Part shown: in pieces, positions 1,472-25,030 of the stretch
How positions within the stretch are numbered: the first letter of the stretch is position 1
Layout: each line of letters starts with the position of its first letter
Source: Spirochaetaceae bacterium
Lineage (GTDB): Bacteria > Spirochaetota > Spirochaetia > Treponematales > Breznakiellaceae
Assembly (NCBI GenBank): GCA_031262035.1
Contig: JAISIL010000025.1
Span: 1 to 39,815 of the forward strand
Length of the DNA: 39,815 nt
Direction of reading: 5' to 3'
The notes under the pieces: model-generated
The model's database searches: none
Told to the model about the DNA's origin: nothing
Seen by the model: only the letters and a program-made list of their open reading frames with translations
Program-made: the position numbers and the translations under genes

Positions 1472-1505
1472 TCAGAATGGGTTATGATAGGTTTATTGCT
1501 CTGAC

Positions 1506-1544
1506 TTACTTGGCGTCGTCCCAATTCCATTCTGCACTCAACAT
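1506..1544 (-). pseudogene. Truncated fourth copy of the Rpn tail
   Basis: Twelve codons (MLSAEWNWDDAK) then TAA. This matches the beginning of the two complete tail mini-genes and of the tail inside the nuclease. It starts 3 bases after the stop of the previous copy, with the same AAGGT-type site just upstream. It may be the remnant of another duplication, or simply the break point of the array. Confidence 0.65.
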
Positions 1545-1547
1545 GGC

Positions 1548-1742
1548 TTACCTTGCGGAAAGATGCTGGGAGCCTTCGATGGACGAAAGTCTATCTGCCA
1601 AGATCTCCCTAAGTTCATCAAGCGAATACCCGGAGTTGATAAGGTTAATAACATCTCGAATCTCTTCATCTCTGGCTCGCCCACCCGCTTCTTTCTGCCA
1701 AACACGCTTGGCATCATCCCAATTCCATTCTGCGGTTAACAT
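1548..1742 (-). CDS. Stand-alone Rpn C-terminal tail, copy 3 (64 aa)
   Basis: The product begins MLTAEWNWDDAKRVWQKEAG, the same opening as the nuclease tail at 2189, then diverges into a helical charged stretch ending RLSSIEGSQHLSAR. It starts 3 bases after the stop of copy 2, with AAGGTGA overlapping that stop, so translation is probably coupled. Copy 3 and copy 2 share the ending (LSS.E.SQ.LSAR) but differ in the middle, as expected for diverging cassettes. In E. coli Rpn systems short C-terminal proteins made from within the nuclease gene neutralise the toxic nuclease; a similar role here is inference. Confidence 0.65.
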   Translation of the reverse strand: MLTAEWNWDDAKRVWQKEAGGRARDEEIRDVINLINSGYSLDELREILADRLSSIEGSQHLSAR

Positions 1743-1745
1743 GGC

Positions 1746-1952
1746 TCACCTTGCTGAAAGATACTGGGAGCTTTCGGTAGATGAAAGCCTTTCGGAAAAG
1801 ATTTTCAACAGGTCATCTGTTGTATGGCCTGATTTGATTAGATCAATAACATTACGTGCGTCTTCTTGCCGAGCTTGCTTTCTCGCGTTCTCCCCTGCCT
1901 CTTTTTGCCAAACACGCTTGGCATCGTCCCAGTTCCATTCTGCGGTTAACAT
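1746..1952 (-). CDS. Stand-alone Rpn C-terminal tail, copy 2 (68 aa)
   Basis: ATG at 1952 follows GGAGGTGG (1958-1965), a near-perfect Shine-Dalgarno site. The roughly 45 bases upstream are homologous to the stretch upstream of the internal ATG at 2189 in the nuclease gene, so the duplicated unit carried its own ribosome site. The product opens MLTAEWNWDDAKRVWQKEAG and continues as a charged helical chain. A GTG at 1961 is also in frame but overlaps the ribosome site. The copy lies 45 bases after the nuclease stop and is probably cotranscribed with it. Confidence 0.7.
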   Translation of the reverse strand: MLTAEWNWDDAKRVWQKEAGENARKQARQEDARNVIDLIKSGHTTDDLLKIFSERLSSTESSQYLSAR

Positions 1953-1957
1953 ATTTA

Positions 1958-1965
1958 CCACCTCC
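1958..1965 (-). promoter_or_regulatory. Shine-Dalgarno site of tail copy 2
   Basis: GGAGGTGG on the minus strand, followed by TAAAT and the ATG at 1952. It matches the site at 2195-2202 inside the nuclease gene. Confidence 0.7.
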
Positions 1966-1997
1966 GATCCGTGTTCAAGTAAAATGGATTTAAACTT

Positions 1998-2927
1998 TCA
2001 GTTTCGTCTACCGAGGTTTGTAATAACTTCAAGAGGCATCTTTAATTCTTTCGAGATATTCTCAGGGGTAATACCATACTTGAGCATGATTCCAATATCC
2101 TCCTCACGAGCCTGCCTCCTTGCATCCTCACCCGCTTCTTTCTGCCAGACATATTTGGCGTCGTCCCAGTTCCATTCTGCTATTAACATATTTATCACCT
2201 CCGATCCGTGCTCAAGGAGAAAATCCTTGAGTTTATTATTTTTTATACACCATTGTACTGCTTTTTTCATGGTCTCGGCTTTACCTGCGTCGTCCAGTTT
2301 TGATACGCCTAATTCAGATTTCAAATCCTCTCTATACTCCCGCACCTTTTCAACGAGGGCACTGTATCCTGTCAGGTTCTGGCTACGTAAAATAATATCA
2401 TTGTTGTGTCCTTGGTTAATATTGAATATCTTCACTGTTATTTCAAGCGAGGGGTATTCTGATTCATGCAAACCAGCACTAACTTTTAAGGGCATTCCCT
2501 CAGGAAAAGATTCAGAAAGCCGCATCAGCGATTCATCCGGGTACCAATCTGTGCCATTGTATAGCACGATGAACTCTGGCCGAGGTATCTTAATCTGGTG
2601 TTCCGAATATATTTCATCTTTTCCAAACTCCATGCTGTTGATTATCTTCTCATATATGCGGGAGATATACAGTAGCATTCTCAGTGCCATATTTGGGTTG
2701 ATTGTGCTCTGGTGCTCTATTAATACTACAAGCTTGTCGCCTATCTCGAATGAGACATCGTTCATTCTGTCCATAAATATGGCGTCCTCAAGGGTGTCTA
2801 TTTTAATGTTGACCTCTTTAGGGATAGTTGTCCCCTCAAGGGCGCCGTATAGCTCACGCAAAACCTCGGTATCATGCCCAAAGAGGAGGGTAAAAACGCT
2901 GTCTTTGTATTTTTTGTTCACATTCAT
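1998..2927 (-). CDS. Rpn-family PD-(D/E)XK nuclease / recombination-promoting transposase-like protein
   Basis: Rpn proteins are PD-(D/E)XK DNA endonucleases; E. coli members promote RecA-independent recombination and are toxic antiphage factors. Numbering from the upstream ATG at 2933, the catalytic core is visible as N-D59-V..., then IE73HQ75 (the D...ExQ variant), followed by the family stretch NPNMALRMLLYISRIYE. The middle part contains PRPEFIVLYNGT, also typical. The last 63 residues form a separate tail starting MLIAEWNWDDAK at base 2189. I chose the second ATG (2927) because the -10 hexamer ends directly at 2934, which puts transcription start on or next to it; the first ATG (2933) would lie upstream of the transcript. 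The gene heads an array of duplicated tails. Confidence 0.85.
   Translation of the reverse strand: MNVNKKYKDSVFTLLFGHDTEVLRELYGALEGTTIPKEVNIKIDTLEDAIFMDRMNDVSFEIGDKLVVLIEHQSTINPNMALRMLLYISRIYEKIINSMEFGKDEIYSEHQIKIPRPEFIVLYNGTDWYPDESLMRLSESFPEGMPLKVSAGLHESEYPSLEITVKIFNINQGHNNDIILRSQNLTGYSALVEKVREYREDLKSELGVSKLDDAGKAETMKKAVQWCIKNNKLKDFLLEHGSEVINMLIAEWNWDDAKYVWQKEAGEDARRQAREEDIGIMLKYGITPENISKELKMPLEVITNLGRRN
2195..2202 (-). promoter_or_regulatory. Internal Shine-Dalgarno site within the nuclease gene
   Basis: GGAGGTGA on the minus strand sits inside the coding sequence, followed by TAAAT and an in-frame ATG at 2189. Eight matches to the anti-Shine-Dalgarno at suitable spacing would drive a 63-residue product identical to the nuclease tail. 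Confidence 0.7.
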
Positions 2928-2933
2928 ACTCAT

Positions 2934-2962
2934 AGTATATCAAATTATTGGAGAAAAGGCAA
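2934..2962 (-). promoter_or_regulatory. Sigma-70 type promoter of the Rpn nuclease gene
   Basis: Minus strand: TTGCCT (2957-2962), 17-base spacer, TATACT (2934-2939). Transcription would start about 2927, the second ATG of the gene, giving a leaderless message. Confidence 0.65.
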
Positions 2963-3017
2963 GAGGTTATCTAAGAAATATAAAGAAAATAGATACAAAG
3001 GAAGGTAAAACAATACC

Positions 3018-6000
3018 ATGGAAACACAGATACTAAACAACACTACGGCGCAGATTGAAGAAGCTGCTTTAAATGACCGGCAGAATCAGCTTGCCATTCC
3101 TTCGGCGGACCTTTTGCAGGCCGGGGAAGCGGTAAACGGTTGGACTATCAGTGAAAAACTCAAGACTGATTCCGGCGAGGCGGAAATCTATCTTTGCAAG
3201 AAAGACAAAGATATTGCCATATTCAAGTATTACTACAATAAAAAACCAAAGCTTGAAGTAATGAAAAAGCTCAAAGCACTAAATCAGCCTAATATCATCG
3301 AATTGATTGAATATGGTAACTACAACAATCGTTTTTATGAGGTGCAGGAATACGCCGAAGGCGGCTCACTTGACTCGAAGACGCCCGATGGTTCCTGGGT
3401 CTATCTGCCACTTAAGGAGGATGATGCGGCAGAGGTGGTGAAGGAGACGATTGAGGCTTTCAAGGCTTGCCATGATGCGGGCATCATTCATCGCGATATA
3501 AAGCCGGGAAATCTTTTCTATAAGACAAAGGAGCGCCAGGGAGTTTTAGTCGGCGATTTCGGAATTTCAAGTTCTTTCGATGTTGAAGATGGGATGAGTA
3601 AGCATCTGACGCAGAGTAACGACAAGACAATCGGCTTTGCCGCGCCCGAGGTTTTTTCGAGCGTTATCGGAAAGGAGATGGATTATTACTCGCTAGGAGT
3701 AACACTGTGGATGCTACTCACAGGTAAGGAGCCTTTTGTTAATGAGAAAGGCCAGCCACTTTCCGATGCACAGATTACACTTGACACTGTGCAGGGTAAA
3801 ACAGTAACACATCTATTGGAGCGTTCAAGCGAACTTAGCACACGAATGAAAACTTTGATACAAGGTCTGATGATTGTGCGTCATGATAAGCGCTGGGGGT
3901 ATAACGAGGTAAGTAAGTTTCTTGCAGGTGAGGATGTGCCGCTATTTAATGAGGTTCGGGAATTTCCTACTGATATAGATCTTGCCGGTCACACTTGCTC
4001 CTCATACCTTGAAATTGCTCAAGCTTTGCTTACAAGGGAAGATGCTGTCAGTCAATATTTTTACCAGGGTCGTCTTGTTCGTGAGCTTGTAAAATTTAAT
4101 GACAAACTTGCCGATGCACTTTCTGATTTAATTGATGAATATAACGACCCAAATGATAAATCAAAACTAATAAAAGGGCTGGTGTTTGCCGCATGCAAAA
4201 TAAGCCCTGCTGTCCCCTTCCCTATTGGAAAGAATAGTGACGAAGAAGAAAAAGCGGTGAGCGGCCTTCGTGATATAGCTGATTATATCGAGAGCGACCC
4301 TGTTCTTATAATGCCTTTCTTGCGTGATGAAACAAAGGGCCTTTACTATTTTCTTGAAGCAGTAGGCGCCGGAGACAATGCAGAGAAAATACTTGAGATT
4401 GCAAAATCTTCAAGCGGCGAAATTCGTGGCAGAAAGCGTATACTTGTTGCAATGAATGGTAATAAAATAAAGCCTTTTGAAGATGGCACAAACAATAATA
4501 TAGTATTAGAAAAGATAGAGGACTTGGATAAATTACCTGACTATCTGCAAACACGCATTTTACTCTTTATCCAAAAAAAGCAAGGTTTGATTTCAGCCTG
4601 GATAGAAAACCTGACAGGTCGCAATCTTGACTTATGGCTTACAAAGTATCAGAATCAGAAAGATAAACTCCTTGCCTGGGGTGAATGGAAGTATTTCAGG
4701 CTTTTCCTTGAAGGAAAGGATGTGCAGAAAAATACGAAGTTTAGTGTAGAGAAAGACGATCAGAAGTTGTGGGGATTGAAAGATGCATTTAACAATGAAT
4801 TATTACCTGCAATCTGGTTGGATATTAACGAAGAATCAATAGCTGGCAAGTTTATTGTTTGCCAAAAGGACTATAAATGGCAATTGATAGATTCTAAAGG
4901 CACTGGTATTCTGCCACCTGAATACAGCAGTATGGAAATTTTTAATGAAGAATTTGGGCAATACAAGGTGCAAAAAGATGGTATTTGGCAGATTGTCGAT
5001 GATAATGGTAATAGCATTTATGAATCGAAAGAAAAAATCAATGTGTATGCTTCTGCAACCAATCCATTTGATGTAATCACTGAGGGCACGCGCTATCTTC
5101 TTTCGGCAGATTTCCAGGTAATAAAGAAAGCAGATAAAATTGCTGTAGCTGATTATGGGAAGAATACCAAGCCTGCCAATAATACTGTATGGCTTAAAGA
5201 CGGCACAGACTGCTATTGTTGTGATGGACAGGGGAATAATGTGAAAAGTATACCATACACTGATTTTGAAATTCAAAATATATCTGTGTGGGTGCAAGTG
5301 CAAAATAATAAATTTGGTTTGGCAGCTCCTGACGGGGAAATTATATTAGACTGTGTCTATGATGATTATGTATATTGCGGTGAAATAAATGATGTGCCTT
5401 ATGCCGCCTTAAAGAAAGCCAATGATTTTGTAATTTATAAATTTATTGATCATGGTATTATTCCAAGGGAATTGCACAAGATTGTTTATGAAAACGGTAA
5501 ATATGTATTATCCCATGACAATGCAAAAAGCATTCAAGTGGATTATATTTGTGATATTACCGAAAAAGCTGAACATATTTACACAAGTAAGCATTACGCC
5601 AATTTTGTTTACAAACACTGTCTTTACGGTTTTGCGGACAATGAGCTAATTTGCCTTGATATAGATTCTCTTAAAGACACACCTCGAAATAAACTGTTTA
5701 GTGGCGAGGAAGAAATGTTTTATAAGCATATTGATACGATTGCGTTATGGAAAAAGGTTCATACACTTAAGAAAGCCGGCAATATTATTGAAATGAATAA
5801 AACAGTGGATCGCTGCTGGAAAATCTTTGCCACTTCCTATTTTAACGCTGAACACCAGGAAATCCCTGCAGATTATGAAACGGCAAAACGCCTCTTATGG
5901 TTCATAAAACCTGATAATACTGAGGGGCTTGAAAATGAATTTTGGTATTATGAAGCACAAAAAGCAAAATGTTGTGAAATGCTCAAAGACCATAAAAATG

Positions 6001-6350
6001 CTGTTATGTTTTATGAAGATGCTATAAAAAGAAATAAGACAAAAGATAATACTGACCATGAATTAGAAAAGGCTTATTGTTGGTTGGGCTTAAGTTATCG
6101 GGGATTAAATGATTATAAGAATGCTCTTGTTTGTTTTGATAAAGCCCTGGAGTTTGATCCGGAAGAATATAGTAATTTGAAACTAAAAGGGCAAACTCTT
6201 ATAGACCTTAATAAATTTCCGGAAGCTATAGGGCATTGTAATATGGTATTGGATATGCATAAATTTGGTGGAAATATGGAACAATCATTTCATAGTTTAC
6301 GCAGCGAGGCATACAGTAAACTTGGTATGAAAGATAAAGGTGGTGTATGA
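3018..6350 (+). CDS. Ser/Thr protein kinase with WG-like and TPR regions (1110 aa)
   Basis: This is a Hanks-type kinase that would phosphorylate Ser/Thr on partner proteins. In order: a short N-terminal tail; kinase domain about 42-320 with K70 (beta-3 lysine), HRD 158-160, K162, N165, DFG 180-182 and APE 209-211, so all catalytic residues are present; a helical region about 320-590 shared with kinase 2 at 13439; a WG-repeat-like region about 610-830 (for example KWQLIDSKG, GIWQIVDDNG, KFGLAAPDGE); and TPR-like repeats about 975-1095. No transmembrane segment is seen, so it is cytoplasmic, unlike PknB-type receptors. It overlaps the next gene by 4 bases (ATGA). The ATG is preceded by ggaagg about 12 bases away. 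No convincing promoter was found in the 84 bases between it and the divergent nuclease gene. Confidence 0.9.
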   Translation: METQILNNTTAQIEEAALNDRQNQLAIPSADLLQAGEAVNGWTISEKLKTDSGEAEIYLCKKDKDIAIFKYYYNKKPKLEVMKKLKALNQPNIIELIEYGNYNNRFYEVQEYAEGGSLDSKTPDGSWVYLPLKEDDAAEVVKETIEAFKACHDAGIIHRDIKPGNLFYKTKERQGVLVGDFGISSSFDVEDGMSKHLTQSNDKTIGFAAPEVFSSVIGKEMDYYSLGVTLWMLLTGKEPFVNEKGQPLSDAQITLDTVQGKTVTHLLERSSELSTRMKTLIQGLMIVRHDKRWGYNEVSKFLAGEDVPLFNEVREFPTDIDLAGHTCSSYLEIAQALLTREDAVSQYFYQGRLVRELVKFNDKLADALSDLIDEYNDPNDKSKLIKGLVFAACKISPAVPFPIGKNSDEEEKAVSGLRDIADYIESDPVLIMPFLRDETKGLYYFLEAVGAGDNAEKILEIAKSSSGEIRGRKRILVAMNGNKIKPFEDGTNNNIVLEKIEDLDKLPDYLQTRILLFIQKKQGLISAWIENLTGRNLDLWLTKYQNQKDKLLAWGEWKYFRLFLEGKDVQKNTKFSVEKDDQKLWGLKDAFNNELLPAIWLDINEESIAGKFIVCQKDYKWQLIDSKGTGILPPEYSSMEIFNEEFGQYKVQKDGIWQIVDDNGNSIYESKEKINVYASATNPFDVITEGTRYLLSADFQVIKKADKIAVADYGKNTKPANNTVWLKDGTDCYCCDGQGNNVKSIPYTDFEIQNISVWVQVQNNKFGLAAPDGEIILDCVYDDYVYCGEINDVPYAALKKANDFVIYKFIDHGIIPRELHKIVYENGKYVLSHDNAKSIQVDYICDITEKAEHIYTSKHYANFVYKHCLYGFADNELICLDIDSLKDTPRNKLFSGEEEMFYKHIDTIALWKKVHTLKKAGNIIEMNKTVDRCWKIFATSYFNAEHQEIPADYETAKRLLWFIKPDNTEGLENEFWYYEAQKAKCCEMLKDHKNAVMFYEDAIKRNKTKDNTDHELEKAYCWLGLSYRGLNDYKNALVCFDKALEFDPEEYSNLKLKGQTLIDLNKFPEAIGHCNMVLDMHKFGGNMEQSFHSLRSEAYSKLGMKDKGGV

Positions 6351-7486
6351 TGAAAATCAAATGCGAATTATGCGGACATGAAACAACAGTCTCCGATGAT
6401 ATGGGCATGTGTTGCATGGAATGCGGCGCTACATTTAATGAGCAGGTAAAAAGTGCTGCCTTGTCAAAAATACATGCAGAAGCTACAAAGAATGCCGCCA
6501 AGATAAAAAAGGCGCAGGAACGTTCAAAGGCACTAACAAAAAATATTGTGTTCTCTATCCCCTACATTATAAGCCTTTTTGTAGCCTTAAGCGGCGTCTT
6601 TATTTTATTAAGCAGGTCTACACGCCTTAATCTTGATGGCAGTCTGACATTGATTTTATACATAACGGCAGGCATTTTAGCTGTTGCCGGTATAACTATT
6701 GGTTTATTAAATCATTTTAAACAAGTATATTTTTCTCTTGTCTATTGGTCGATAGCATTTGCGGCACTGCTTTTCTTTTATGAATTGATTAATTATATAT
6801 CATATGATAAGCTTCCCAGCATCCTTGGACTAAGTGCTAGCGTTTCGAATACTGTGGCTATTATTGAGGTAATGGTTGTAATGCCGCTTATGCTTACAGT
6901 AGTTGGAACATATTTACTACGTGCAAAAGGTTTTTTTATCGGCCTTGCAATTGGAATTGCTGCACTTGTATTTTTATCAAAACAATTTACATCTTTTGAA
7001 TCTGAAATTAAGTGGATGACAATACTATTGGTATTAATATCAGCGCTTACTATCGTTATATATACATTTTCAATTAGACGTTTGGACACATCCCTTATAC
7101 CCATTACAGCAATTCTGGGCGCTTTGCTTATTGCGTTCACAGCGTTTTTAGTAAATCAAAACCCACTTATAGTTCAGAAAATATGGACAGGTAAGATTCA
7201 AATAAATTCATCAGCAACTGAAGAACCAATTAATTTCATAGAAGAACCATTTAGCCACGAAGTATCCACTGGCGATGGCTCAACGCTCAGCCTGAAAGAA
7301 ACACCTCTTGCAGGAAGCGCAATCGTAACGCGCATGGCCGAAGGGACAGATGTCCGGCTGTTAGAAACAGGCGGTGAGGACACAATTGACGGTATTGACG
7401 GCAACTGGGTCCGGGTAGGAACAGAAGATGGCGATGAAGGCTGGTGTTTCTCCGGATATTTACAGGAATTGGGAGATGGTGAATAG
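6347..7486 (+). CDS. Zinc-ribbon, multi-pass membrane protein with C-terminal SH3-like domain (379 aa)
   Basis: The N terminus is a zinc ribbon (C6xxC9 and C23xxC26), followed by a lysine/alanine-rich helix about 33-62 that looks like a coiled coil. About seven hydrophobic segments follow between residues 66 and 270. The last ~70 residues (about 305-372) look like a bacterial SH3 domain, with VRLLETG, NWVRVG and GWCFSGYL. With an odd number of membrane segments the zinc ribbon would be cytoplasmic and the SH3 domain outside, where this fold often binds cell-wall peptide. It could tie the kinase locus to an envelope signal. It starts within the kinase stop (ATGA) and ends directly before the AAA+ gene. 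The topology is my reading, not a computed prediction. Confidence 0.75.
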   Translation: MMKIKCELCGHETTVSDDMGMCCMECGATFNEQVKSAALSKIHAEATKNAAKIKKAQERSKALTKNIVFSIPYIISLFVALSGVFILLSRSTRLNLDGSLTLILYITAGILAVAGITIGLLNHFKQVYFSLVYWSIAFAALLFFYELINYISYDKLPSILGLSASVSNTVAIIEVMVVMPLMLTVVGTYLLRAKGFFIGLAIGIAALVFLSKQFTSFESEIKWMTILLVLISALTIVIYTFSIRRLDTSLIPITAILGALLIAFTAFLVNQNPLIVQKIWTGKIQINSSATEEPINFIEEPFSHEVSTGDGSTLSLKETPLAGSAIVTRMAEGTDVRLLETGGEDTIDGIDGNWVRVGTEDGDEGWCFSGYLQELGDGE

Positions 7487-10400
7487 ATGAGTGATATGAA
7501 GAACACCCAATACGCAACACCTAAAGTGCCACAAACACAAAGCACCACAATCCCCTGCCCTACTTGTAGCAGGGAAAATCGCAGTGTAGCAAAATACTGC
7601 CGTTACTGTGGTAAAACAATGCAAGATGCTTCCGCTGCTCCGTTCGTACCGTCTGTGTCCTCCGTAGCTAAAAATGAAAGATCTACCGACTATATCGGCT
7701 TGGAAAAAATCCGCACAGAACTAAATAAACAAAAAGTTTTACTTGAACTACAGAAACGAGGCAACACCGGCGGCAACAAAAAAATAGTTTTCATATTCCA
7801 GGGAAACACCGGCTCAGGCAAATCGCTTGTAGCCTCATGTTTTATCAAAGAACTGAAAAGCAAGAATCTGTTGAGCAGCGATAAAATACTGGAAAAATCC
7901 GCAAAAGAGCTTTCGAACACCTTCAGAAGCGAATTTGAAATCACAAAGTATTTTAACGAAAACCAGTATGGCGCTATTGTTATTGATGAAATACAACAAA
8001 GCATTGAATACTTGAATGAATTATTGCGAGGCCTTAAAAAGAGCACAGGTGAAAGCCTTTGTATCATTCTGGGCCTTAAAGAACCGCTTGCACAATATTT
8101 CAAGGAGCATCCTGAAGATGTGAGTTTTTGTAACGAAACCTTTGATTTCCCTGACCAAAGCGATGAAGACTTGGCATTGATACTTGAAAAAGAACTGGCG
8201 AATAAAAACATGGTATATGATGATTCGGTAAAAGAAATATTTATTCCATACATTCAGGAAAGCCGTTACAATCCTGACTGCCAGAACAAAAACGGCTGGC
8301 TTGTAGAGAATGACATCATTCCGAATATCCTTAAACAACAGGCAGAGAGATTAACACAGAAAACAGAACTAAACGATGATGATTTTAAAACAATCCTCAA
8401 AGAAGACCTACCATTAAAAACAAGCCAGAAAAGCATCAACGAAATATTTGCAGACCTCGATGAAATGACCGGCCTTGCTGCTGCAAAAAAAGCAGTGCGG
8501 GAAATTGCCGACACTATCGAAATGCAAAAAGAAATGGCAGAACAGTCAGGCGAGCCGGGTAAAAAAACGCAGGCGCCTTCGGTGCATATTGTTTTTACCG
8601 GCAATCCCGGCACTGGCAAAACAACTGTAGCCAGAATGCTCGGCCAATTGTTCAAGAGTATTGGCTTATTACCCAGCGATAAGGTCATTGAAGTTGACAA
8701 GAGCAAACTGGTTGCCTCTTATGTGGGTCAAACAGCGCCGCTGGTAAATCAGTGGTGCGACAAGGCAATGGGTGGCATTCTGTTTATTGATGAAGCCTAT
8801 AGTATTACCGGCGGAAAAGATGGCGACACCGACAGTTTTGGACAAGATGCCATTGATGCACTTTTGAAACGCATGGAAGATGACCGTGGAAAATTTGTGG
8901 TAATTGCAGCCGGTTATAAAAACGAAATGAAACATTTTCTTGACGCAAATCCCGGCCTGCAAAGTCGTTTTACTCATTTTATTGACCTGGAAGATTATAC
9001 TCCTGATGAACTTTTCGCGATATTCACCTCGATTGTGCAGAAGAACGGCCTTGCCATGACACAGGAAGCAAGCAACATTGCGCGAGAAAAAATAGAAGAA
9101 ACATATCGCAATCGCACAAAAAACTTTGCCAATGGCCGTGAAGTGCGGAATATGTATGATGAAACAATCCGCCGCCGTTCGAGCCGCCTTGTAAAAATGT
9201 CTAAAGATGAACGCACGAAAGACGCGCTCTCCACAATTTTACCTGAGGATATTGCCTTTGAAAAGAAGAAAGTGTTGACGGTTGATGAAATTCTCTCAGA
9301 ACTTGATGCAATGATTGGTTTAAGCGCCGTGAAAAAAGCAGTGCGGGAACTGGCGAACAAAATTGAGATGCAAAAAGAGCGCGAAGAAAAAGGCGCAGGT
9401 GAGGCGAAGCGCATGGGTATTCACATCGTCTTTACCGGCAATCCCGGCACTGGTAAAACTACGGTGGCGCGCAAACTTGGTGCATTGTTTAAGGCTATGG
9501 ATTTACTGCCCCGTTCTGATGTTATCGAAAAAGACAAGAGCGGTATGGTCGGCCAGTATGTTGGTTCTACACCAAAACTGGTGAACCAGGCATGCGATGA
9601 TGCAATGGGTGCAATTCTCTTTGTTGATGAAGCCTACACACTTGCTGGTGAAGACGGAATGAAAGATTCATTTGGGCAGGAAGCGATTGACACTTTGATG
9701 AAGCGTATGGAAGATGACCGTGGAAAGTTTGTGGTGATTGCAGCCGGTTATAAAAAAGAAATGGAACGCTTCCTCACTGCAAATCCCGGTATGCGAAGCC
9801 GCTTTACCGATTTTATTCACCTTGATGATTATAACCCCGATGAACTGTTCCAAATTTATGAACTTACCTTGAAGAACGAAAACTATTTTCTTGATGAAGA
9901 AGCAAAGGCGAAGGCAAAAGAAGCAATCACTGAAATTTACAACAACCGTGGTGATGATTTTGCCAACGGCAGAACAATGCGAAACCTTGCCGATGAAACC
10001 ACCCGCCGCCAGTCGAGCCGCATTTCGGAATTGACAAAAGATGAGCGCACAACCGAAGTGCTCACCACAATTACCGCAGATGACATACCATTTGAAAAGC
10101 AAAAAACGGTAAGTGTGAAAGAAATTTTAAGCGAACTTGACAGCATGATTGGATTGCAGGCAGTGAAAAAAGCGGTGCGGGAATTGGCACAAACGGTGCA
10201 GATGGATATTGAAAAAGCCGACGAAGGCTTGGGTAGCAACATGCCTGTTGTTCATATCGTCTTTACCGGCAACCCCGGCACAGGCAAAACCACTGTGGTG
10301 CGCAAACTCGGCAAACTGTTCCAGGCAATGAAACTATTGCCGTCTGCAAAGGTGGTAGAAGTTGACCGCAGTAAATTGGTGGCATCCTATGTAGGCCAAA

Positions 10401-10921
10401 CCGGGCCGTTGGCGAACCAGGCCTGTGATGAAGCAATGGGCGGCATCCTCTTTATCGATGAAGCCTATTCGCTGGTTTCAGGCGGCGGCAATGATTTTGG
10501 TCAAGAAGCAATTGACACATTGCTGAAACGCATGGAAGACGACCGTGGAAAATTCGTGGTGATTGCCGCCGGTTATGAAGACGAAATGCAGGGCTTTATC
10601 GAAGCAAATCCGGGTCTAAAAAGCCGCTTTACCCACTTTATACACTTGGAAGATTACAACCCCGATGAACTTGCCGCCATTTATTTATCGATGGCAAAAC
10701 AGCAAGGCTACAAACTCACAGCGGAAGCGGAAGACGGCATCAAAGCATTTGCGGCAAGCGTCTACGACAATCGTGGCAAAGATTTTGCAAACGGTAGAAC
10801 AATGCGCAATTATCTCGATGAAACAATCCGCCGTCAGGCAAGCCGTATCAGTGAATTACCCAAGGCAGAACGGTCGCGTGAAGTGCTTATGACAATAACA
10901 GAGGAGGATACACCCAAATGA
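7487..10921 (+). CDS. Zinc-ribbon protein with one divergent and three CbxX/CfqX-type AAA+ modules (1144 aa)
   Basis: An N-terminal zinc ribbon (CPTC 24-27, CRYC 38-41) is followed by a divergent P-loop module (Walker A GNTGSGKS 106-113, Walker B IVIDE near 164-168). Then come three tandem modules of the CbxX/CfqX/SpoVK class, each with GNPGTGKTT (starting 372, 651, 928), a Walker B ending in LFIDEAY or LFVDEAY, and the shared stretch MEDDRGKFVVIAAGY. Module spacing is about 280 residues. Relatives remodel protein complexes (Rubisco activase CbbX, EccA of type VII secretion). Three fused copies in one chain could make a pseudo-hexameric ring from two chains. The start directly follows the previous stop; the end overlaps the FHA gene by 4 bases. 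The three modules are clearly internal duplications. Confidence 0.9.
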   Translation: MSDMKNTQYATPKVPQTQSTTIPCPTCSRENRSVAKYCRYCGKTMQDASAAPFVPSVSSVAKNERSTDYIGLEKIRTELNKQKVLLELQKRGNTGGNKKIVFIFQGNTGSGKSLVASCFIKELKSKNLLSSDKILEKSAKELSNTFRSEFEITKYFNENQYGAIVIDEIQQSIEYLNELLRGLKKSTGESLCIILGLKEPLAQYFKEHPEDVSFCNETFDFPDQSDEDLALILEKELANKNMVYDDSVKEIFIPYIQESRYNPDCQNKNGWLVENDIIPNILKQQAERLTQKTELNDDDFKTILKEDLPLKTSQKSINEIFADLDEMTGLAAAKKAVREIADTIEMQKEMAEQSGEPGKKTQAPSVHIVFTGNPGTGKTTVARMLGQLFKSIGLLPSDKVIEVDKSKLVASYVGQTAPLVNQWCDKAMGGILFIDEAYSITGGKDGDTDSFGQDAIDALLKRMEDDRGKFVVIAAGYKNEMKHFLDANPGLQSRFTHFIDLEDYTPDELFAIFTSIVQKNGLAMTQEASNIAREKIEETYRNRTKNFANGREVRNMYDETIRRRSSRLVKMSKDERTKDALSTILPEDIAFEKKKVLTVDEILSELDAMIGLSAVKKAVRELANKIEMQKEREEKGAGEAKRMGIHIVFTGNPGTGKTTVARKLGALFKAMDLLPRSDVIEKDKSGMVGQYVGSTPKLVNQACDDAMGAILFVDEAYTLAGEDGMKDSFGQEAIDTLMKRMEDDRGKFVVIAAGYKKEMERFLTANPGMRSRFTDFIHLDDYNPDELFQIYELTLKNENYFLDEEAKAKAKEAITEIYNNRGDDFANGRTMRNLADETTRRQSSRISELTKDERTTEVLTTITADDIPFEKQKTVSVKEILSELDSMIGLQAVKKAVRELAQTVQMDIEKADEGLGSNMPVVHIVFTGNPGTGKTTVVRKLGKLFQAMKLLPSAKVVEVDRSKLVASYVGQTGPLANQACDEAMGGILFIDEAYSLVSGGGNDFGQEAIDTLLKRMEDDRGKFVVIAAGYEDEMQGFIEANPGLKSRFTHFIHLEDYNPDELAAIYLSMAKQQGYKLTAEAEDGIKAFAASVYDNRGKDFANGRTMRNYLDETIRRQASRISELPKAERSREVLMTITEEDTPK

Positions 10922-11505
10922 TTTGTCCTAACGAATTGTGTAAAGAAACCATCCCCGACGACTCCCTCTATTGCGACCAGTGTGGCAACGAAATATGGCG
11001 CTGTCTCCAATGCGGTAAACCCGGCACCGATAGATACTGCGATGATTGTGGTGTGGAGATGGTGTTTACGCCTATGGAAGAAGCAACAGGTACACCCCTC
11101 CCCCAGCCCCTCCCGCAAGGGGAGGGGAGGAAAATAAACTCCTCCCCCTCTGGGGGAGGTTGGGTGGGGGTAACTTCACCCTCTCCTTCTGCCACCGTCG
11201 TCGTCCAACTCCCCTCAGACCACATCACCTTCTTCCACCCAGATGGCTGGAAACTGGAAATACATGATGGTGATATCCTCGGCCGTAGCAATGGCCGGCA
11301 CACAGCACGATTGGGAAGCATACCGGTTATTTCAGGCAACCATGCAAAAGTGACAAACAATGGCGGTAAATGGTTTCTGACAGATTTGAATTCAACCAAT
11401 AAGACCTATGTAAATACATCGCGTCTTGAGCCAAATGTACCAATAGAAATAAAACAAAACGATGTTGTGACCTTGGCGAATGTCAATTTTACGGTGGTAG
11501 TATAA
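10918..11505 (+). CDS. Zinc-ribbon and FHA-domain protein (195 aa)
   Basis: FHA domains bind phosphothreonine, so this is the likely reader of the locus kinases. The N-terminal ~50 residues hold two zinc ribbons (C3, C8, C19, C22 and CLQC, CDDC). The FHA domain spans about 101-195 with the expected residues: GR 122-123, S139-G-N-H142 and N158-S-T-N161. The linker between them, residues 57-88, is the translation of a palindromic repeat (TPLPQPLPQGEG ... SGGGWVGV) and is probably disordered and recently acquired. The ATG overlaps the AAA+ stop (ATGA), which suggests coupled translation. Confidence 0.88.
   Translation: MICPNELCKETIPDDSLYCDQCGNEIWRCLQCGKPGTDRYCDDCGVEMVFTPMEEATGTPLPQPLPQGEGRKINSSPSGGGWVGVTSPSPSATVVVQLPSDHITFFHPDGWKLEIHDGDILGRSNGRHTARLGSIPVISGNHAKVTNNGGKWFLTDLNSTNKTYVNTSRLEPNVPIEIKQNDVVTLANVNFTVVV
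11094..11171. repeat. C/G-rich palindromic element inside the FHA gene
   Basis: Arms 11094-11130 and about 11139-11171 are imperfect reverse complements, both rich in cccctccc/gggaggg blocks. The element keeps the reading frame and adds about 30 residues to the linker. Such elements are normally intergenic; the base composition differs sharply from the surrounding A/T-richer gene. Confidence 0.8.
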
Positions 11506-11515
11506 GGGTAGAAAA

Positions 11516-12214
11516 ATGAAAGTAACAAGCGGAGTATATTCAACAAAAGGTGTTCGGCCTCAAAACGAAGATTCGTATATCTGCAATACTGATAATACAC
11601 CAAACGGACCAATGCTATTTGCAGTAGCAGACGGCATGGGCGGACATGCTGCAGGGGATGTAGCGAGTCAGTTTGTTGTAAAAGCGCTGAAAGACTTCAC
11701 TACATCAAACAGTGATGTAGTGACCGGCGATTCACTTGAAGCCTTATTAAAAAGAATACACAACAATTTATTGGAAGAAGGTAAAAAACGCGGCACACCG
11801 AATATGGGCACCACCATCACCGGCATTGTGTTGCAGGATGGCGAATGCGGCATCTTCAATGTGGGCGACAGCCGCACCTATCGTTTGCGTAACGGCATCT
11901 TGCAGCAACTTTCCCGTGATGATTCACTTGCAAGTATTGTTCCGGATGCTGCGAAAAACATTATCACCAATGCATTAGGTGCAGGCCTTAATACAATCAC
12001 TGTGCAGCAGCGTTTTTCAAAAAACATTGCCGTCCCTGGTGACCTGTTCTTCATGTGTAGTGATGGTGTACATGGCGCCATTGACGATGATGGACTGGCA
12101 GAGATGCTGGAAAATGGCGGTAGTCTTGATGATATCGCAAAAACAATTGTAGAAAAGGCAATTGAAAATGGCTCAGACGATAATTGCACGGCGGTTATTG
12201 TGAGGATAGAATAA
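11516..12214 (+). CDS. PP2C-family Ser/Thr protein phosphatase (232 aa)
   Basis: This is the likely eraser of the locus, removing phosphate from Ser/Thr. Metal-binding and family motifs are intact: R14-P-Q-N-E18-D19, DGMGGH 39-44, VGDSR near 116-120, SDGVHG near 182-187 and DDNC near 221-224. At 232 residues it is a bare catalytic domain of the PrpC/Stp1 type with no membrane segment. It lies 10 bases after the FHA gene, with aagggtag as ribosome site. Pairing of PP2C with Hanks-type kinases and FHA proteins is a recurring genomic pattern. Confidence 0.92.
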   Translation: MKVTSGVYSTKGVRPQNEDSYICNTDNTPNGPMLFAVADGMGGHAAGDVASQFVVKALKDFTTSNSDVVTGDSLEALLKRIHNNLLEEGKKRGTPNMGTTITGIVLQDGECGIFNVGDSRTYRLRNGILQQLSRDDSLASIVPDAAKNIITNALGAGLNTITVQQRFSKNIAVPGDLFFMCSDGVHGAIDDDGLAEMLENGGSLDDIAKTIVEKAIENGSDDNCTAVIVRIE

Positions 12215-12302: not shown

Positions 12303-13418
12303 ATGGCAGATTATCAACAGCAACAACAACAAGCGCAACAACAGCAGGCGCAGGAAGATAAGCTTAGTGTAACACTGTGTCCAAACTGTGGCTCACCCCT
12401 GAAACCAAACGCAAAATTCTGCACCCACTGTGGGGAAAAGTTTGGTGGGGAAAAGCATACCTGCATTTATTGCAAAACTGAAACAACAAACGACATCTGT
12501 CCACATTGCAAAAGGCGTGTGGTTCCCTTTACCTGCCCCAAATGCAGCAACAAAACATTGAATGATGTATGCGAAAAATGCGGCATGATACTCAACCCAC
12601 AGTTGCAGGCATTTGCAAATGAGGAAAAGAAAGAGGCGCCTAAACAAATGTCCGCCGAAGAAGTGCGGCAGATGGAGCAGCAGTTTAAGCAAGCCGAGTC
12701 GCCTGAGTTTGAAGCATTTCAGAAAAAGCTGATTGAACACCAGATATTACTTGAAGAACGGGATTATTTTAATAACAGAGAAAAGCGAATCATAAAGACA
12801 TTTGGAAGGCAGCCTTTCGATATAGAACTGCCCGACCCGGAAGAAGAAGCGTTTAGAATGAAAGCGTATGCAGGTTTTGAACAGGTGATTATCGAAAAAC
12901 AGCAGAAGTTGGAAACAGACGAATGGTTAAAATTGTTTCCCCCGGAAGTAAAACAACAATTTGATGCTGAAATTAAGGCTGTTGAACAGGTTGCCGACCT
13001 TGCAGCACGGAAAAAGGAAATGGAAAAGAAATATAAAGAGATGCTGGCAAAGGTAAATGATGAAGTTACGGCATTCAGGATTGAGGAAGAACGGAAGCGA
13101 AAGGAACGTGAAAGACGTGTTCTGGGAATATATTATTATGGTAATCCTGTTAGTGATTATGAATGGATAAAATTAGATATTGGCAATCAAACAAGTGCAA
13201 GTGCAGCCCACCACTGTGGCGGACATGGTATGAGTTATGGAAGTTACACTATGGGTTATGATGGACGTAATATTAATTTAACCTGCAGATTACTTTCATA
13301 TAAGGATTGTCCCTTAAAACACCAAAATATGGGCAATTTTAATGGTGTTCTTAATGATAACGGAACAGTCATTTCAGGCTATTGGCAAGGTGCGCCGGTA
13401 ACAATGATGAAATTTTAA
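12303..13418 (+). CDS. Q-rich, zinc-ribbon and coiled-coil protein with an unrecognised C-terminal domain (371 aa)
   Basis: The N terminus is glutamine-rich (residues 5-17). Residues about 26-93 hold six CxxC knuckles (CPNC, CTHC, CIYC, CPHC, CPKC, CEKC), enough for three zinc ribbons. Residues about 105-275 are charged helices with strong coiled-coil character. The last ~95 residues (about 277-371, starting VLGIYYYGNPVSDYEW) are glycine- and aromatic-rich, probably beta, with HHCGGHG; I do not recognise this domain. A good ribosome site (aggag, 12292-12296) fixes the start. It sits between the phosphatase and kinase 2 and may be a substrate or scaffold; this is inference. Confidence 0.75.
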   Translation: MADYQQQQQQAQQQQAQEDKLSVTLCPNCGSPLKPNAKFCTHCGEKFGGEKHTCIYCKTETTNDICPHCKRRVVPFTCPKCSNKTLNDVCEKCGMILNPQLQAFANEEKKEAPKQMSAEEVRQMEQQFKQAESPEFEAFQKKLIEHQILLEERDYFNNREKRIIKTFGRQPFDIELPDPEEEAFRMKAYAGFEQVIIEKQQKLETDEWLKLFPPEVKQQFDAEIKAVEQVADLAARKKEMEKKYKEMLAKVNDEVTAFRIEEERKRKERERRVLGIYYYGNPVSDYEWIKLDIGNQTSASAAHHCGGHGMSYGSYTMGYDGRNINLTCRLLSYKDCPLKHQNMGNFNGVLNDNGTVISGYWQGAPVTMMKF

Positions 13419-13438: not shown

Positions 13439-15115
13439 ATGGCAGACACACAAATAATCAACACAGGAACACATTCTGGAACACAGGTTATTACCGGTTC
13501 TACTACAGACACCGGTGCAAACTTCACCGGCGGACTTTTACAGAAGGGCGAAACGGTGGCAGGCTGGATGGTGGAAAGTAAGATGAACACCGCATCGGGT
13601 GAGGCGGATTTGTATATTGCAAGGCAGGTGGTCTCGACAAGCTCGACCACCGAGGTTGGCTCGACTACCGAAGACGGCTCAAGTACCGAAGGTGCTCGGA
13701 AAGGCGTAATCAAGTATTATCGGAGTATTACTAAACCGAAGACTGATATTCTGGACAAAATTAAGATGCTCAATCATCCGGATATAATTGAACTATTTGA
13801 GTATGGTGAATATAAGGGACGCTTCTATGAAATCATGGAGTATGCAGCAGGCGGCTCGCTTGATACACACAACAGTGATGGCAGTTATAAATATCTTCCC
13901 CTAGATGAAGAAAAAACAATTGACACGGTAAAAGAAATAGTAAATGCCTATAAAACCTGCCACGAAAAAGGCATCATTCACCGGGACATTAAACCGGCAA
14001 ATATTTATTATCGAAATGAAGGTAAAGATATTGTCATAGGCGATTTTGGTATTTCCAGTATCATGGAGGAAAGCGAACAACTGCACAAAACGCAAACCGG
14101 CTCACGCACCACCGGCTATGCAGCGCCGGAAGTACTATCAGGCATCATCTCACCTGCAATGGACTATTATGCACTGGGTGTAACAATATGGGAAATGCTC
14201 ACAGGTAAAGACCCATTTGTAATGGAAAATGGTAAGCGCAGAAATGATGCACACCTGATACGCGACACCATCGAAGGCCGCATTGCAGATGATATGTTAA
14301 GCCGCACACCGGATATGTCAAAAAAAATGCAGAAACTGGTCCGAGGCCTCATGGTAATCGATAGCGACAAACGCTGGGGCGGCGAAGAAGTGCTCCGTTT
14401 CCTTGCCGGGGAAGATGTGCCGGTATACGAAAAGCCGAAACAGGCATGGCATTTTGAGCTTGGTGAAAAAGATTGCACCAGCCTTGAAGAACTAGGGCAA
14501 GCAATACTTGATGACCCAAACGGCACACAGAAAAAAGTATACCGTAACCTTCTTGCCGGTTTTCTTGAAACAGATTATCCTGACTATGCAAAACAAATCA
14601 ATGAAATTACCGAAGAATATTCGGCAAAAAATGATATGTATAACGGCCTTATCCGCATTGCCTATCTTTTGAACCCCAGTATGCCAATGCTTTTAGGTAA
14701 TGGTTTCAGCCTTACCACTCCTGACGAACTGATTTCTTGTCTTGAAAATGCCCCGGAAACCGTTTTGCCTTTGTTAAAAGATAAAAAATCAAAACTCTAC
14801 ACCTGGCTGGATATAACCGGTTATGAAAAAGAAGCAGACGAAATACAAATACTGCTGGATGCTTACGATAGAAACAATGAAACTGATGGCAGCTTCCTGG
14901 CAAAGACAGAAGTGATTCTTCGTCATTATATCATCAAACCTTTTAAGTTGGAAAAATATGCAAATCTTGAACTATCATCATTAGAGCAGATAGAGAAATT
15001 ACCGAAAGAGCTTAAAAATCATCTAGAAGCTGTCCGGAAGGAACACAGCTACGAAGGACTTCTCCTTCCCTGGCTTCAACTTCTAGAAACTAACCCTTCC
15101 CCTGAAGCTGCGTGA
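13439..15115 (+). CDS. Second Ser/Thr protein kinase, paralogue of the first (558 aa)
   Basis: A Hanks-type kinase with K92, HRD 181-183, K185, N188, DFG 202-204 and APE near 231-233 all present. It is similar to the kinase at 3018 across the kinase domain and the following helical region (for example HPDIIELFEYG against QPNIIELIEYG), but it lacks the WG and TPR parts. No membrane segment is seen. Between beta-2 and beta-3 of the N lobe (residues about 63-86) is a Ser/Thr/Glu-rich insert encoded by a palindrome and an 18-base tandem repeat. A good ribosome site (caggagag, 13423-13430) fixes the start. The last 33 bases overlap recR tail to tail. Confidence 0.9.
   Translation: MADTQIINTGTHSGTQVITGSTTDTGANFTGGLLQKGETVAGWMVESKMNTASGEADLYIARQVVSTSSTTEVGSTTEDGSSTEGARKGVIKYYRSITKPKTDILDKIKMLNHPDIIELFEYGEYKGRFYEIMEYAAGGSLDTHNSDGSYKYLPLDEEKTIDTVKEIVNAYKTCHEKGIIHRDIKPANIYYRNEGKDIVIGDFGISSIMEESEQLHKTQTGSRTTGYAAPEVLSGIISPAMDYYALGVTIWEMLTGKDPFVMENGKRRNDAHLIRDTIEGRIADDMLSRTPDMSKKMQKLVRGLMVIDSDKRWGGEEVLRFLAGEDVPVYEKPKQAWHFELGEKDCTSLEELGQAILDDPNGTQKKVYRNLLAGFLETDYPDYAKQINEITEEYSAKNDMYNGLIRIAYLLNPSMPMLLGNGFSLTTPDELISCLENAPETVLPLLKDKKSKLYTWLDITGYEKEADEIQILLDAYDRNNETDGSFLAKTEVILRHYIIKPFKLEKYANLELSSLEQIEKLPKELKNHLEAVRKEHSYEGLLLPWLQLLETNPSPEAA
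13627..13697. repeat. Palindrome plus 18-base tandem repeat inside kinase 2
   Basis: A hairpin (ggtgg ... tcga/caagc/tcga ... ccacc, 13627-13651) leads into three 18-base units beginning gctcga/gctcga/gctcaa. Translated, they give S-T-T-E-V-G, S-T-T-E-D-G and S-S-T-E-G-A. The corresponding position in kinase 1 has no insert, so it was gained in frame. Confidence 0.75.
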
Positions 15116-15697
15116 GAGGGTGAGGCGGTCGGTATATTCGAGGTCGCCGCCGACGGGGAGGCCTGATGCGAGGCGGCTTATGGTCAGGCCTTCAAGGCCG
15201 GGCTCCTCGGAAAGGACTTTTTGTAGATACAGGGCGGTGGTGTCGCCTTCTATGGTGGGGTTAAGGGCAATAATTACTTCTTTTGCCCCCTTGTGAAGCC
15301 GCATTACCAGTTTGCCTATGCTGAGCTTTTCCGGGCCGATGCCGTCCAAGGGGGCAATTAGACCACCGAGCACATGAAAGAGGCCGCGGAATTCACGGCT
15401 TTCTTCTATTATATGAACATCCTGGGGGCGTTCCACAACACAGATAAGGCTTCTGTCGCGGGTGTCGTCGCTGCAGATGGGGCAAGTGGCTGTTTCGGTC
15501 CAGGCGCCGCATTCGGGGCAGCGTTTAATGGTAGAATGAAGGATATTCAGGTTTTGGGCAAGGGATTGGCAATAGGCCGGGTCGCCTTCCAAAAAGAAAT
15601 AGGCCATGCGGCTTGCGCTTTTTTTCCCTACACCGGGGATTTTAGCAAGCTGCATGGTTAAACGGTCTATAAGGCCTTCACTATTAGAGGTTGACAT
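15083..15697 (-). CDS. recR: Recombination protein RecR
   Basis: RecR works with RecF/RecO in loading RecA at gaps. The 204-residue length is normal. Seen in order: helix-hairpin-helix LAKIPGVGKKSASRMAYF near the N terminus, the zinc finger C..C..C..C (CPECG..., CPIC) around residues 55-75, and a Toprim domain with VVERPQDV and ALNPTIEGDTTALYL. It starts 14 bases inside the end of ybaB, in the usual dnaX-ybaB-recR operon. Its 3' end overlaps kinase 2 by 33 bases. Confidence 0.95.
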   Translation of the reverse strand: MSTSNSEGLIDRLTMQLAKIPGVGKKSASRMAYFFLEGDPAYCQSLAQNLNILHSTIKRCPECGAWTETATCPICSDDTRDRSLICVVERPQDVHIIEESREFRGLFHVLGGLIAPLDGIGPEKLSIGKLVMRLHKGAKEVIIALNPTIEGDTTALYLQKVLSEEPGLEGLTISRLASGLPVGGDLEYTDRLTLSRSFRGRVSF

Positions 15698-16022
15698 TGG
15701 GCATACCTTGTAACAAGCCGGGGATGTTTATGCCGCCTGTCATTGCAGACATTTCTTTTGCCGCAGCGTTACGGGCCTTTTCCGTTGCCACATTAAAGGC
15801 TGCCTGGACAAGGTCTTCGAGCATGGCTGCATCGTTTTCTGCAACAATGTCGGGGCTTATGGTAATGTTTACCAGTTCAAGCTTGCCGTTCATTTCTACT
15901 TCGACCATGCCTGCTCCGGCACTGCCCCGGACAGTAACATTGGCAAGTTTTTCCTGCATAACACCCATTTGCTCCTGAATCTTCTGGGCATTTTTCATTA
16001 TATCCAGGGGATTGATTGTCAT
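15684..16022 (-). CDS. ybaB: YbaB/EbfC family nucleoid-associated protein
   Basis: A small dimeric DNA-binding protein that coats the nucleoid, commonly encoded between dnaX and recR. The 112-residue length, the early helix with KNAQKIQEQMGVMQEKL, the VRGSAGAGMVEVEMNGKLELVNITI sheet region (shortened here: GSAGAGMVEVEMNG) and the C-terminal helix match the family. It overlaps dnaX by 4 bases (ATGA) and recR by 14. Confidence 0.93.
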   Translation of the reverse strand: MTINPLDIMKNAQKIQEQMGVMQEKLANVTVRGSAGAGMVEVEMNGKLELVNITISPDIVAENDAAMLEDLVQAAFNVATEKARNAAAKEMSAMTGGINIPGLLQGMPNVNL

Positions 16023-17413
16023 TGTATTGTTCCTCCAAAAACCTTTAACACGGTATCAACTGCATCGCTGCTTTTATCATCAGTATTATTCCCATTGGCC
16101 CGCTCCTGCTTCATTTTTTTGTATTGCGCAATGAGGGAATCGTCATCGGGGTCGGACGGCGGAGCGGCGGTTTCCGCCGCCATTGTAGGGGCGGGTTTCA
16201 AACCCGCCCCTACAATGGTTGTTTCGCCACCACCGGTTGCCCCGGCCACCATTGCCCCCCCACCAATACGCACCTTTGCAATGGCCTCCACAATCTCCCC
16301 GGAGCTTATCCATTTGCTTAATGCGGCTAATTTGGATACGACTGTTTCTATTTCGAAACGGGGGGATATGCAATAGCGGACATTCCGGTAGAGCTCGAGT
16401 AATATATCAAGGGCCCTTTCAAGGCGGGCGGTATCCAAGGCTTGTAATACAATAGAAGAAAAATGCTCGCCTTTTTCGCCAAGGATTGATTCACGGGTGA
16501 TGCCGTTTTTTAAAAGGAGCAGGGAACGGTAATAGCCTGCAAGTTCTACTACCAATTGTTCAATTGCCACGCCGGCTTCCAGTGTTTCGTCCAAAAGCAT
16601 AAAGGCCTTGTTTGCATCCCCGGTGGCGCAGGCTTCGGCAAGATTGTTCAGCGTTTCTATGCCGGTAAGGCCAAGTTTTTCGCGAATAAGGCTGGTGCGA
16701 ATAAATGTTTCGCCTTCTGATGCCGAAAAAGCGACCACCTGGTCGAACAAGGTGTATGCATCACGGAGGCTGCCGGTGGATTCTTTTGCTATCCAGAAAA
16801 GGGCTTCATCTTCTGCCTTGATGCCCATTTCATCGCAGGCCTGTTTTAATATACTCTGGATTGTTTCTATGGGAATAAGGCGGAAGCTAAATTGCTGACA
16901 ACGGCTTTTAATCGTTGCCGGCACCTTGTGTATTTCGGTTGTAGCAAAAATGAAAATGATATAAGGCGGTGGCTCCTCAATTGTCTTGAGCAGGGCATTA
17001 AAGGCGCTGTTTGAAAGCATGTGGACTTCATCAATAATATATATCTTGTAGGGCCGTCCGCTGCTCGGCGGATAGAGCACCTCATCTTTTATCTGCCTGA
17101 CATCATTCACGCTGGTATTGCTGGCCCCGTCTATCTCTATCACATCAATATTGGCGCCCCGGGCTATCTCCTGACAGCTTGAGCAGAGGCCGCAAGGGTT
17201 AGCAGTCGGCCCCTTCTCGCAGTTCAGCGCCCGCGCAAGAATCCGAGCCGTGCTGGTTTTTCCGCAGCCCCGCGGGCCCGAAAAAAGATAGGCGTGAGCA
17301 ATCTTTCTTGTTTCAAGAGAATTTTTGAGGGTGCTTGCGACAAATTCCTGCCCGGCAAGTTCATTAAATGTTTTGGGCCGCCTTCTGGTGGCTGTTACTT
17401 CATATTCTGCCAT
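16019..17413 (-). CDS. dnaX: DNA polymerase III subunit gamma/tau
   Basis: The clamp-loader ATPase. Visible: TRRRPKTFNELAGQ at the start, Walker A GPRGCGKTS, a four-cysteine zinc module (C8xC2xC2xC type, CEKGPTANPCGLCSSC), Walker B YIIDEVHM, and the sensor-1 region FIFATTE. I use ATG 17413 (MAEYEV) because the alternative ATG 17443 lies inside the SRP RNA. At about 464 residues it is short for a tau form. The linker near residues 385-415 contains two palindromic stretches; one translates as IVGAGLKPAPT, a repeat peptide rather than conserved DnaX sequence. Transcription probably comes from the SRP RNA promoter. Confidence 0.94.
   Translation of the reverse strand: MAEYEVTATRRRPKTFNELAGQEFVASTLKNSLETRKIAHAYLFSGPRGCGKTSTARILARALNCEKGPTANPCGLCSSCQEIARGANIDVIEIDGASNTSVNDVRQIKDEVLYPPSSGRPYKIYIIDEVHMLSNSAFNALLKTIEEPPPYIIFIFATTEIHKVPATIKSRCQQFSFRLIPIETIQSILKQACDEMGIKAEDEALFWIAKESTGSLRDAYTLFDQVVAFSASEGETFIRTSLIREKLGLTGIETLNNLAEACATGDANKAFMLLDETLEAGVAIEQLVVELAGYYRSLLLLKNGITRESILGEKGEHFSSIVLQALDTARLERALDILLELYRNVRYCISPRFEIETVVSKLAALSKWISSGEIVEAIAKVRIGGGAMVAGATGGGETTIVGAGLKPAPTMAAETAAPPSDPDDDSLIAQYKKMKQERANGNNTDDKSSDAVDTVLKVFGGTIQ
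16164..16216. repeat. Perfect palindrome within the dnaX linker
   Basis: 16182-16198 and 16200-16216 are perfect 17-base reverse complements around a single base. Just beside it is a second hairpin, gcggcgg/ttt/ccgccgc (16164-16180). Both are in frame in the C-terminal linker of DnaX. Confidence 0.85.
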
Positions 17414-17421
17414 ACTAAAAA

Positions 17422-17532
17422 GCTCTATCGCCAGGATGGCCACGGCGCGACATGCATCTGCTTGCCGTTGCTGCCTTCCGGCCCTGGCGGATTCCGGCGG
17501 CGCATGCCCGCATGGGTCCTGACGATAAGAGC
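17422..17532 (-). ncRNA. ffs: Signal recognition particle RNA (small bacterial type)
   Basis: The minus strand contains the diagnostic apical-loop core CCAGGGCCGGAAGGCAGCAA (about 17466-17485), which binds Ffh. The two ends pair over about 14 positions (GCTCTTATCGTCAGGA with TCCTGGCGATAGAGC), giving a 111-base hairpin of the expected size. It lies 8 bases upstream of the dnaX start, an arrangement common in bacteria, and has its own strong promoter. The exact ends are inferred from the outer stem. Confidence 0.93.
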
Positions 17533-21144: not shown

Positions 21145-21166
21145 TTCAGATACCTCCGCACTTAAA

Positions 21167-21193
21167 TTGTCGGCATATATTTTAAGGGCTTTA
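21167..21193 (-). promoter_or_regulatory. Sigma-28 (FliA) type promoter of flgL
   Basis: Minus strand: TAAAGCCC (21186-21193), 11-base spacer, GCCGACAA (21167-21174), compared with the consensus TAAAGTTT-N11-GCCGATAA. The spacing is exact and the -10 has seven of eight matches. The -35 overlaps a weak hairpin that follows the preceding gene's stop. Confidence 0.75.
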
Positions 21194-21197
21194 GCCT

Positions 21198-24977: not shown

Positions 24978-25030
24978 AACTTATCTATTTTCTCTTTTTA
25001 GTTTATAATTACTACCTTGTTTCTTATTTC

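Follow-up and report, generated by a model that had tools for sequence, protein, structure and literature searches.

The SpoVK-CbbX-EccA clade of classical AAA ATPases is recognised in PMC10659427 by a tyrosine at sensor 1 (GY), an asparagine before the first arginine finger, and a second arginine. The same paper describes the members of the clade as dedicated chaperones with narrow targets, and SpoVK as the chaperone of MurG in sporulating Firmicutes. In the present analysis a lid of the AAA_lid_6 type was added as a clade feature, which is absent from the definition in PMC10659427. We analyzed a gene at 7487-10921 (+) of the window, that is, of the whole 39,815-nucleotide stretch of DNA under study. 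The gene starts with ATG, is free of internal stops, and encodes a protein of 1144 aa, called the tandem ATPase below.

Judged from its sequence, the tandem ATPase consists of four CbxX-type modules, one degenerate (N) and three intact (M1-M3), behind a zinc ribbon. The N-terminal ribbon (CPTC...CRYCG, aa 24-42, 7556-7612, + strand, as are all the modules) was found by a CxxC scan. A module profile built for this analysis located Walker A motifs at aa 106, 372, 651, and 928. Module N (about aa 66-313, 7682-8425) was delimited by profile and PDB matches and by a motif table. M1 (aa 314-595, 8426-9271) and M2 (aa 596-873, 9272-10105) were delimited by the module profile, the motif table, and separate profile searches, and M3 (aa 874-1144, 10106-10918) in the same way, with additional matches to the CbbX structures 3ZUH/3SYK at E 3e-58. 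The Pfam AAA and AAA_lid_6 models each matched the tandem ATPase three times, and also matched M1-M3 when these were searched separately; the AAA_lid_6 domain behind the AAA core scored 55-62 bits against a cut-off of 24.3. The clade signatures (GY, Asn and finger, sensor-2 Arg) were all present in M1-M3. An earlier note on this DNA had described a covalent fusion of three CbxX modules with intact Walker motifs, about 280 residues apart, following a divergent P-loop module and a zinc ribbon. The Pfam and profile matches agree with this description, the Walker motifs are intact, and the measured spacing was 271-282 residues.

The characterization of the first module as a divergent P-loop module also held, and could be refined, as module N is itself derived from a CbxX module. 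Searched alone, it gave a full-length match to TIGR02881 (stage V sporulation protein K; 52 bits, E 5e-14), a weak match to AAA_lid_6, and a match to crystallised CbbX (full-sequence E 6e-4). When used as a query on genomes of the phylum, it also retrieved ordinary CbxX modules. The chain is therefore counted as four CbxX-type modules. The motif table, which covered 16 tandem proteins, showed that N modules have kept most of Walker A, often as GxTGTGKS/T. The sensor-1 GY was lost in all of them (now G[LIMST]), as was the sensor-2 arginine (mostly NGW instead), the pore aromatic was lost in nearly all, and the catalytic glutamate of Walker B was often lost. In the tandem ATPase, module N has kept Walker A and the DE of Walker B and has lost the finger arginine, while module N in L081-L083 is less degenerate, with Walker A, a DE Walker B, and a finger-like arginine. 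The loss of the pore aromatic, GY, and the sensor-2 arginine suggests that module N is probably not a working motor.

Each of M1-M3 matched the SpoVK, EccA, and CbbX models at 209-281 bits in per-module searches, and all three also matched CbbX structures in a PDB search. Each is homologous over its full length to the red-type Rubisco activase CbbX (3SYK/3SYL/3ZUH), with which it shares the pore loop, the type of arginine finger, and the lid; however, CbbX has one module per chain, whereas the tandem ATPase has three active modules and a degenerate one. The scores of M1-M3 with the NCBIfam CbbX equivalog (209-224 bits) did not reach its cut-off of 459.25, and the RuBisCO_large profile had no match in this genome, with control matches obtained in five genomes. 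SpoVK was the best-scoring curated model for each of M1-M3 (259-281 bits) and has the same clade signatures, but the per-module scores were under the equivalog cut-off of 422.95, which the whole tandem ATPase passes only because the scores of its three modules add up. The tandem ATPase also differs from SpoVK in its tandem modules, its kinase operon, and its host, which is marked by FlaA as a spirochaete and not as a sporulating Firmicute. EccA of type VII secretion has the same type of AAA core and lid (222-225 bits per module), but the match was confined to the AAA region of the model (about 270-552 of 557), and the tandem ATPase is without its N-terminal TPR domain. The EccB profile had no match in this genome, and none in the controls either; the T6SS sheath protein VipA had no match in this genome, with a control match in E. 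coli.

The spirochaete host was inferred from the flagellin and FlgK genes in the window and from three genes of the FlaA (periplasmic flagellar sheath) family in this genome, a family found in 0 of 14 controls. The flagellin and FlgK genes lie within 19909-27522 (-) and enclose three unassigned ORFs (21198-24977). The window also holds potassium uptake genes, one TrkA and two TrkH in succession, at 29330-33543 (+).

A repeat of this kind in a draft genome of 215 contigs could be an assembly or frameshift artefact concealing a single module. The modules M1, M2, and M3 were 60-64% identical to each other in protein and 63-65% in DNA, and third codon positions were only 44-48% identical, which indicates old duplications. 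The same triple fusion, which the earlier note had suggested looking for in other genomes, was present in the same order (module N and three intact modules, N+3) in seven other genomes of the phylum, which FlaA points to as Spirochaetota: L077 (60% identical) and L078, L079, L080, L081, L082, and L083 (41-46%). The cysteines of the zinc ribbon were invariant in the eight N+3 proteins. This recurrence, together with the divergence among the modules, excludes an artefact for practical purposes. Between the tandem ATPase and L077, codon positions 1 and 2 were better conserved than position 3 in all segments, as purifying selection would predict; M2 was the most conserved module (73%) and N the least (44%). 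Chains with module N and two intact modules (N+2) were found in L084-L091, with L091 incomplete at a contig end. The distribution was patchy, as strong module N matches were found in 8 of 392 sampled genomes of the phylum. A scan of genome contigs gave one match only, which was single-module. Three CbxX modules were also present in one chain of 1203 aa on a viral metagenome contig (L099, 5050-8658).

From the fixed covalent order the earlier note had concluded that the three sites can specialise, as they would if three distinct sites occupied fixed positions in one ring, in the manner of dynein or Pex1/6-like asymmetric rings. The motif table did not bear this out. Walker A (GNPGTGKTT), the DE of Walker B, the pore Tyr/Phe, the sensor-1 AGY, and the asparagine and arginine of the finger motif NxGxxxR[F] were kept in all 40 intact modules of the 16 tandem proteins, and the sensor-2 motif FANGR..RN was present in M1-M3 of the tandem ATPase. 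The second arginine of sensor 2 was altered in L081 M2, and the first was lost only in L078. Among the sensor, pore-loop, and arginine-finger residues compared between modules, this L078 loss counted as the one exception, and it was common to all three modules of that protein. Since the 40 intact modules keep the same motif set, and M1, M2, and M3 do not differ in any class of catalytic or pore residue, the sequences give no support to a catalytic specialisation of the three sites. The L078 (G206) tandem gene (1439-4948) also has FAEEAATTLMK and RRF in all three modules, along with the sensor-2 loss, as if they had been homogenised.

The history of the modules was investigated with one tree of 58 modules and a second tree limited to 24 modules of N+3 proteins. 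In both trees, M1-M3 of L078 formed one clade (100/100) and M2 and M3 of L079 clustered together (100/100), while M1 and M2 of L088 clustered in the 58-module tree (99/94). An AU test on the N+3 modules rejected a single clade for all M1, all M2, or all M3 (p 2e-55, 6e-45, and 3e-5, respectively). One ancient triplication is thus rejected on the module phylogeny; given the AU result and the within-protein clades, either triplication happened more than once or the modules were homogenised in some lineages. However, the trees also showed positional clades of M2 and M3 maintained across distant families in L080-L083, and in part for the tandem ATPase and L077. Homogenisation in place would suggest that the positions are functionally equivalent in the lineages concerned, whereas the position-specific clades argue against equivalent positions in L080-L083. 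These clades are what speaks for a ring with three specialised sites; with positional orthology rejected over the whole N+3 set and the catalytic residues alike, we regard that arrangement as unlikely.

Complete CbxX chains were grouped at 60% identity into 83 clusters, a sample biased to relatives of the tandem ATPase; 63 of these had one intact module, 13 had two, six had three, and one was scored as having four. The last score arose because module N of the L081-L083 type passes a loose motif filter, and the fuller motif table gave three plus one for this cluster. A clear chain with four intact modules was not found among these clusters, which may be an effect of sampling, as even three modules were rare. 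Tandem CbxX chains are as such a known kind, since public databases already contain two-module ones, annotated for instance as AAA family ATPase. The two-module proteins on plasmids and viral contigs, from Virgibacillus, Calothrix, Streptomyces (beside eccC), and Methylobacterium, resemble the tandem ATPase in having tandem intact modules in one chain, but they have two modules, other N-terminal domains (e.g., a beta-helix), and no kinase/FHA/PP2C operon in the annotated stretches. One of them, a Streptomyces plasmid protein with a beta-helix and two CbxX modules (L201, 2291-5602), adjoins eccC, which links this one tandem CbxX protein to type VII secretion.

Several AAA modules per chain are also found in the type II AAA proteins Cdc48/p97, Rix7, and Drg1, but these have two modules that form two stacked rings, and their sequence similarity is only distant. 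Each module of the tandem ATPase might form its own homohexameric ring, giving a Cdc48/ClpB-like machine of three or four tiers made of six chains. The sequence and fold matches that span two modules go to the two-tier proteins Cdc48/p97, Rix7, and Drg1, and the fixed order and position-specific clades of L080-L083 would suit tiers with differing roles. However, superposition of a two-module AlphaFold model on p97-type chains (VIA-align, Foldseek), with both modules spanned, gave an rmsd of 8-13 A and a TM score of 0.36-0.47, and with the low pTM as well the model does not clearly reproduce the p97 arrangement; the homogenised modules of L078, L088, and L079 are also harder to square with distinct tier jobs. 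The two-module model had a pLDDT of 86 and a pTM of 0.54, with good single modules (M2 aligned to CbbX with Z 27.7) and an unreliable mutual placement. Neither dynein nor midasin was among the matches listed, to which no weight is given as evidence. The full-length model, from an alignment with the three-module L099, had a pLDDT of 40; an alignment with single-module viral relatives was set aside, as all of these stacked on M3. Stacked tiers are a serious contender, though one that we hold to be somewhat improbable.

We next describe the genes around the tandem ATPase, which are joined by ATGA overlaps or short gaps and lie on the + strand. A Ser/Thr kinase with a C-terminal TPR region (1110 aa, 3018-6350, Pkinase E 3e-36), whose stop overlaps the next start, is followed by a zinc-ribbon, multi-TM, SH3b protein (379 aa, 6347-7486; SH3_3, about seven hydrophobic segments, two CxxC). 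Downstream are a zinc-ribbon and FHA protein (195 aa, 10918-11505; FHA E 8e-15, DZR), which has an ATGA overlap with the AAA gene, a PP2C phosphatase (232 aa, 11516-12214; PP2C_2 E 5e-16, Stp1-like E 4e-46 but under the NCBIfam cut-off), a 371-aa protein with six CxxC and an unassigned C-terminal domain (12303-13418; zinc ribbon by DZR and CxxC count) that has homologues in related operons, and a second Ser/Thr kinase (558 aa, 13439-15115, Pkinase E 1e-41). A zinc-ribbon-like protein (185 aa, 914-1471, +; six CxxC, weak Zn_ribbon_5) is a possible further member. Between it and the kinase at 3018 lies a YhgA-like, transposase-like ORF (Transposase_31, PDDEXK_2; 1998-2933, -); an ORF at 1477-3036 (+) is probably no gene, and looks spurious because it is antisense to the YhgA-like ORF. 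On the other side, the operon is flanked by recR (15083-15697), which at its end shares about 33 bases with the second kinase gene, and by a dnaX-like DNA polymerase III gamma/tau gene (16019-17443), both on the - strand.

The FHA and PP2C neighbours recurred in L077, L079, L080, L081, L082, L083, L085, L088, and L090. L078 had PP2C, zinc-ribbon, and kinase neighbours, with no FHA called. Kinase neighbours were present in most relatives having PP2C, and most N+3 relatives, across distant families, share the STK, FHA, PP2C, and zinc-ribbon partners; ankyrin or MORN repeats were seen on the kinases of some relatives. Kinase/PP2C partners were not found beside the N+2 genes of L084, L086, L087, and L089, which indicates that phospho-regulation does not go with this architecture in every case. 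The set of enzymes and reader is the same as in known kinase-FHA-PP2C phospho-signalling modules, T6SS-associated ones among them. The lack of a VipA match in this genome sets the tandem operon apart from the latter, and the regulated machine in the tandem operon is presumably the AAA protein.

Kinase signalling joined to an AAA motor could also belong to an anti-phage or other conflict system, for which the patchy distribution, the adjoining transposase-like ORF, the tandem relatives on plasmids and phage or viral contigs, and matches of the kinases to the PADLOC mad6/PD-T4-6 models would speak. However, the kinase matches reflect generic Pkinase similarity, with NCBIfam MAD6 far under its cut-off, and the AAA matches to IetA/TRIP13 are likewise generic. 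A nuclease, toxin, or effector domain was not found in the operon, which adjoins recR and dnaX. A role in conflict is therefore quite unlikely.

Given its intact motors and the partners of the kinase, FHA, and PP2C types, the tandem ATPase is best read as a phospho-regulated, ATP-driven remodeller, a dedicated chaperone of the SpoVK/CbbX/EccA clade. It would be a natural concatemer, preferably with two chains per ring, and we give this reading a probability of about 0.55. The active modules would assemble as six-membered AAA rings whose pore loops pull on the target. In the preferred assembly two chains would form one hexamer (3+3, a single ring), with module N outside it; the occurrence of chains with one, two, or three intact modules and the within-protein clades in L078, L088, and L079 are hints in this direction. 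Module N would bind nucleotide at most and would have a docking or regulatory role or form a fixed cap. Partners may be docked by zinc ribbons, which the AAA, FHA, SH3b, and 371-aa proteins share. The kinases would phosphorylate a partner or target, the FHA protein would bring this to the motor, and PP2C would reset the system. A broader proposal is that bacteria have repeatedly evolved genetically concatenated AAA rings. Each chain would hold two or three CbxX motors that can stand in for one another, in a number that has to divide six; the modules would be renewed or homogenised where they stand, and two or three chains would close a hexamer under phospho-signalling control. We put this forward as speculative and rather doubtful.

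No description of the form with a degenerate N module and three motors, of its kinase operon, or of its repeated re-making was found in the open literature searched, the architectures in Figure 3A (zinc-binding domain key) of the SpoVK paper PMC10659427 aside; its parts come from established families. If the modules share one ring, the tandem ATPase would be a natural AAA hexamer of fixed order, in which single sites could be mutated without mixing subunits and sequential versus random firing would be directly testable. If the concatenated-ring reading is true, it would also be a natural counterpart of the covalently linked ring-ATPase subunits engineered in the laboratory. The recurrence of the operon further leads one to expect a chaperone under phospho-regulation in spirochaetes; the members of its clade that have been studied act in secretion, in envelope synthesis, or in carbon fixation.
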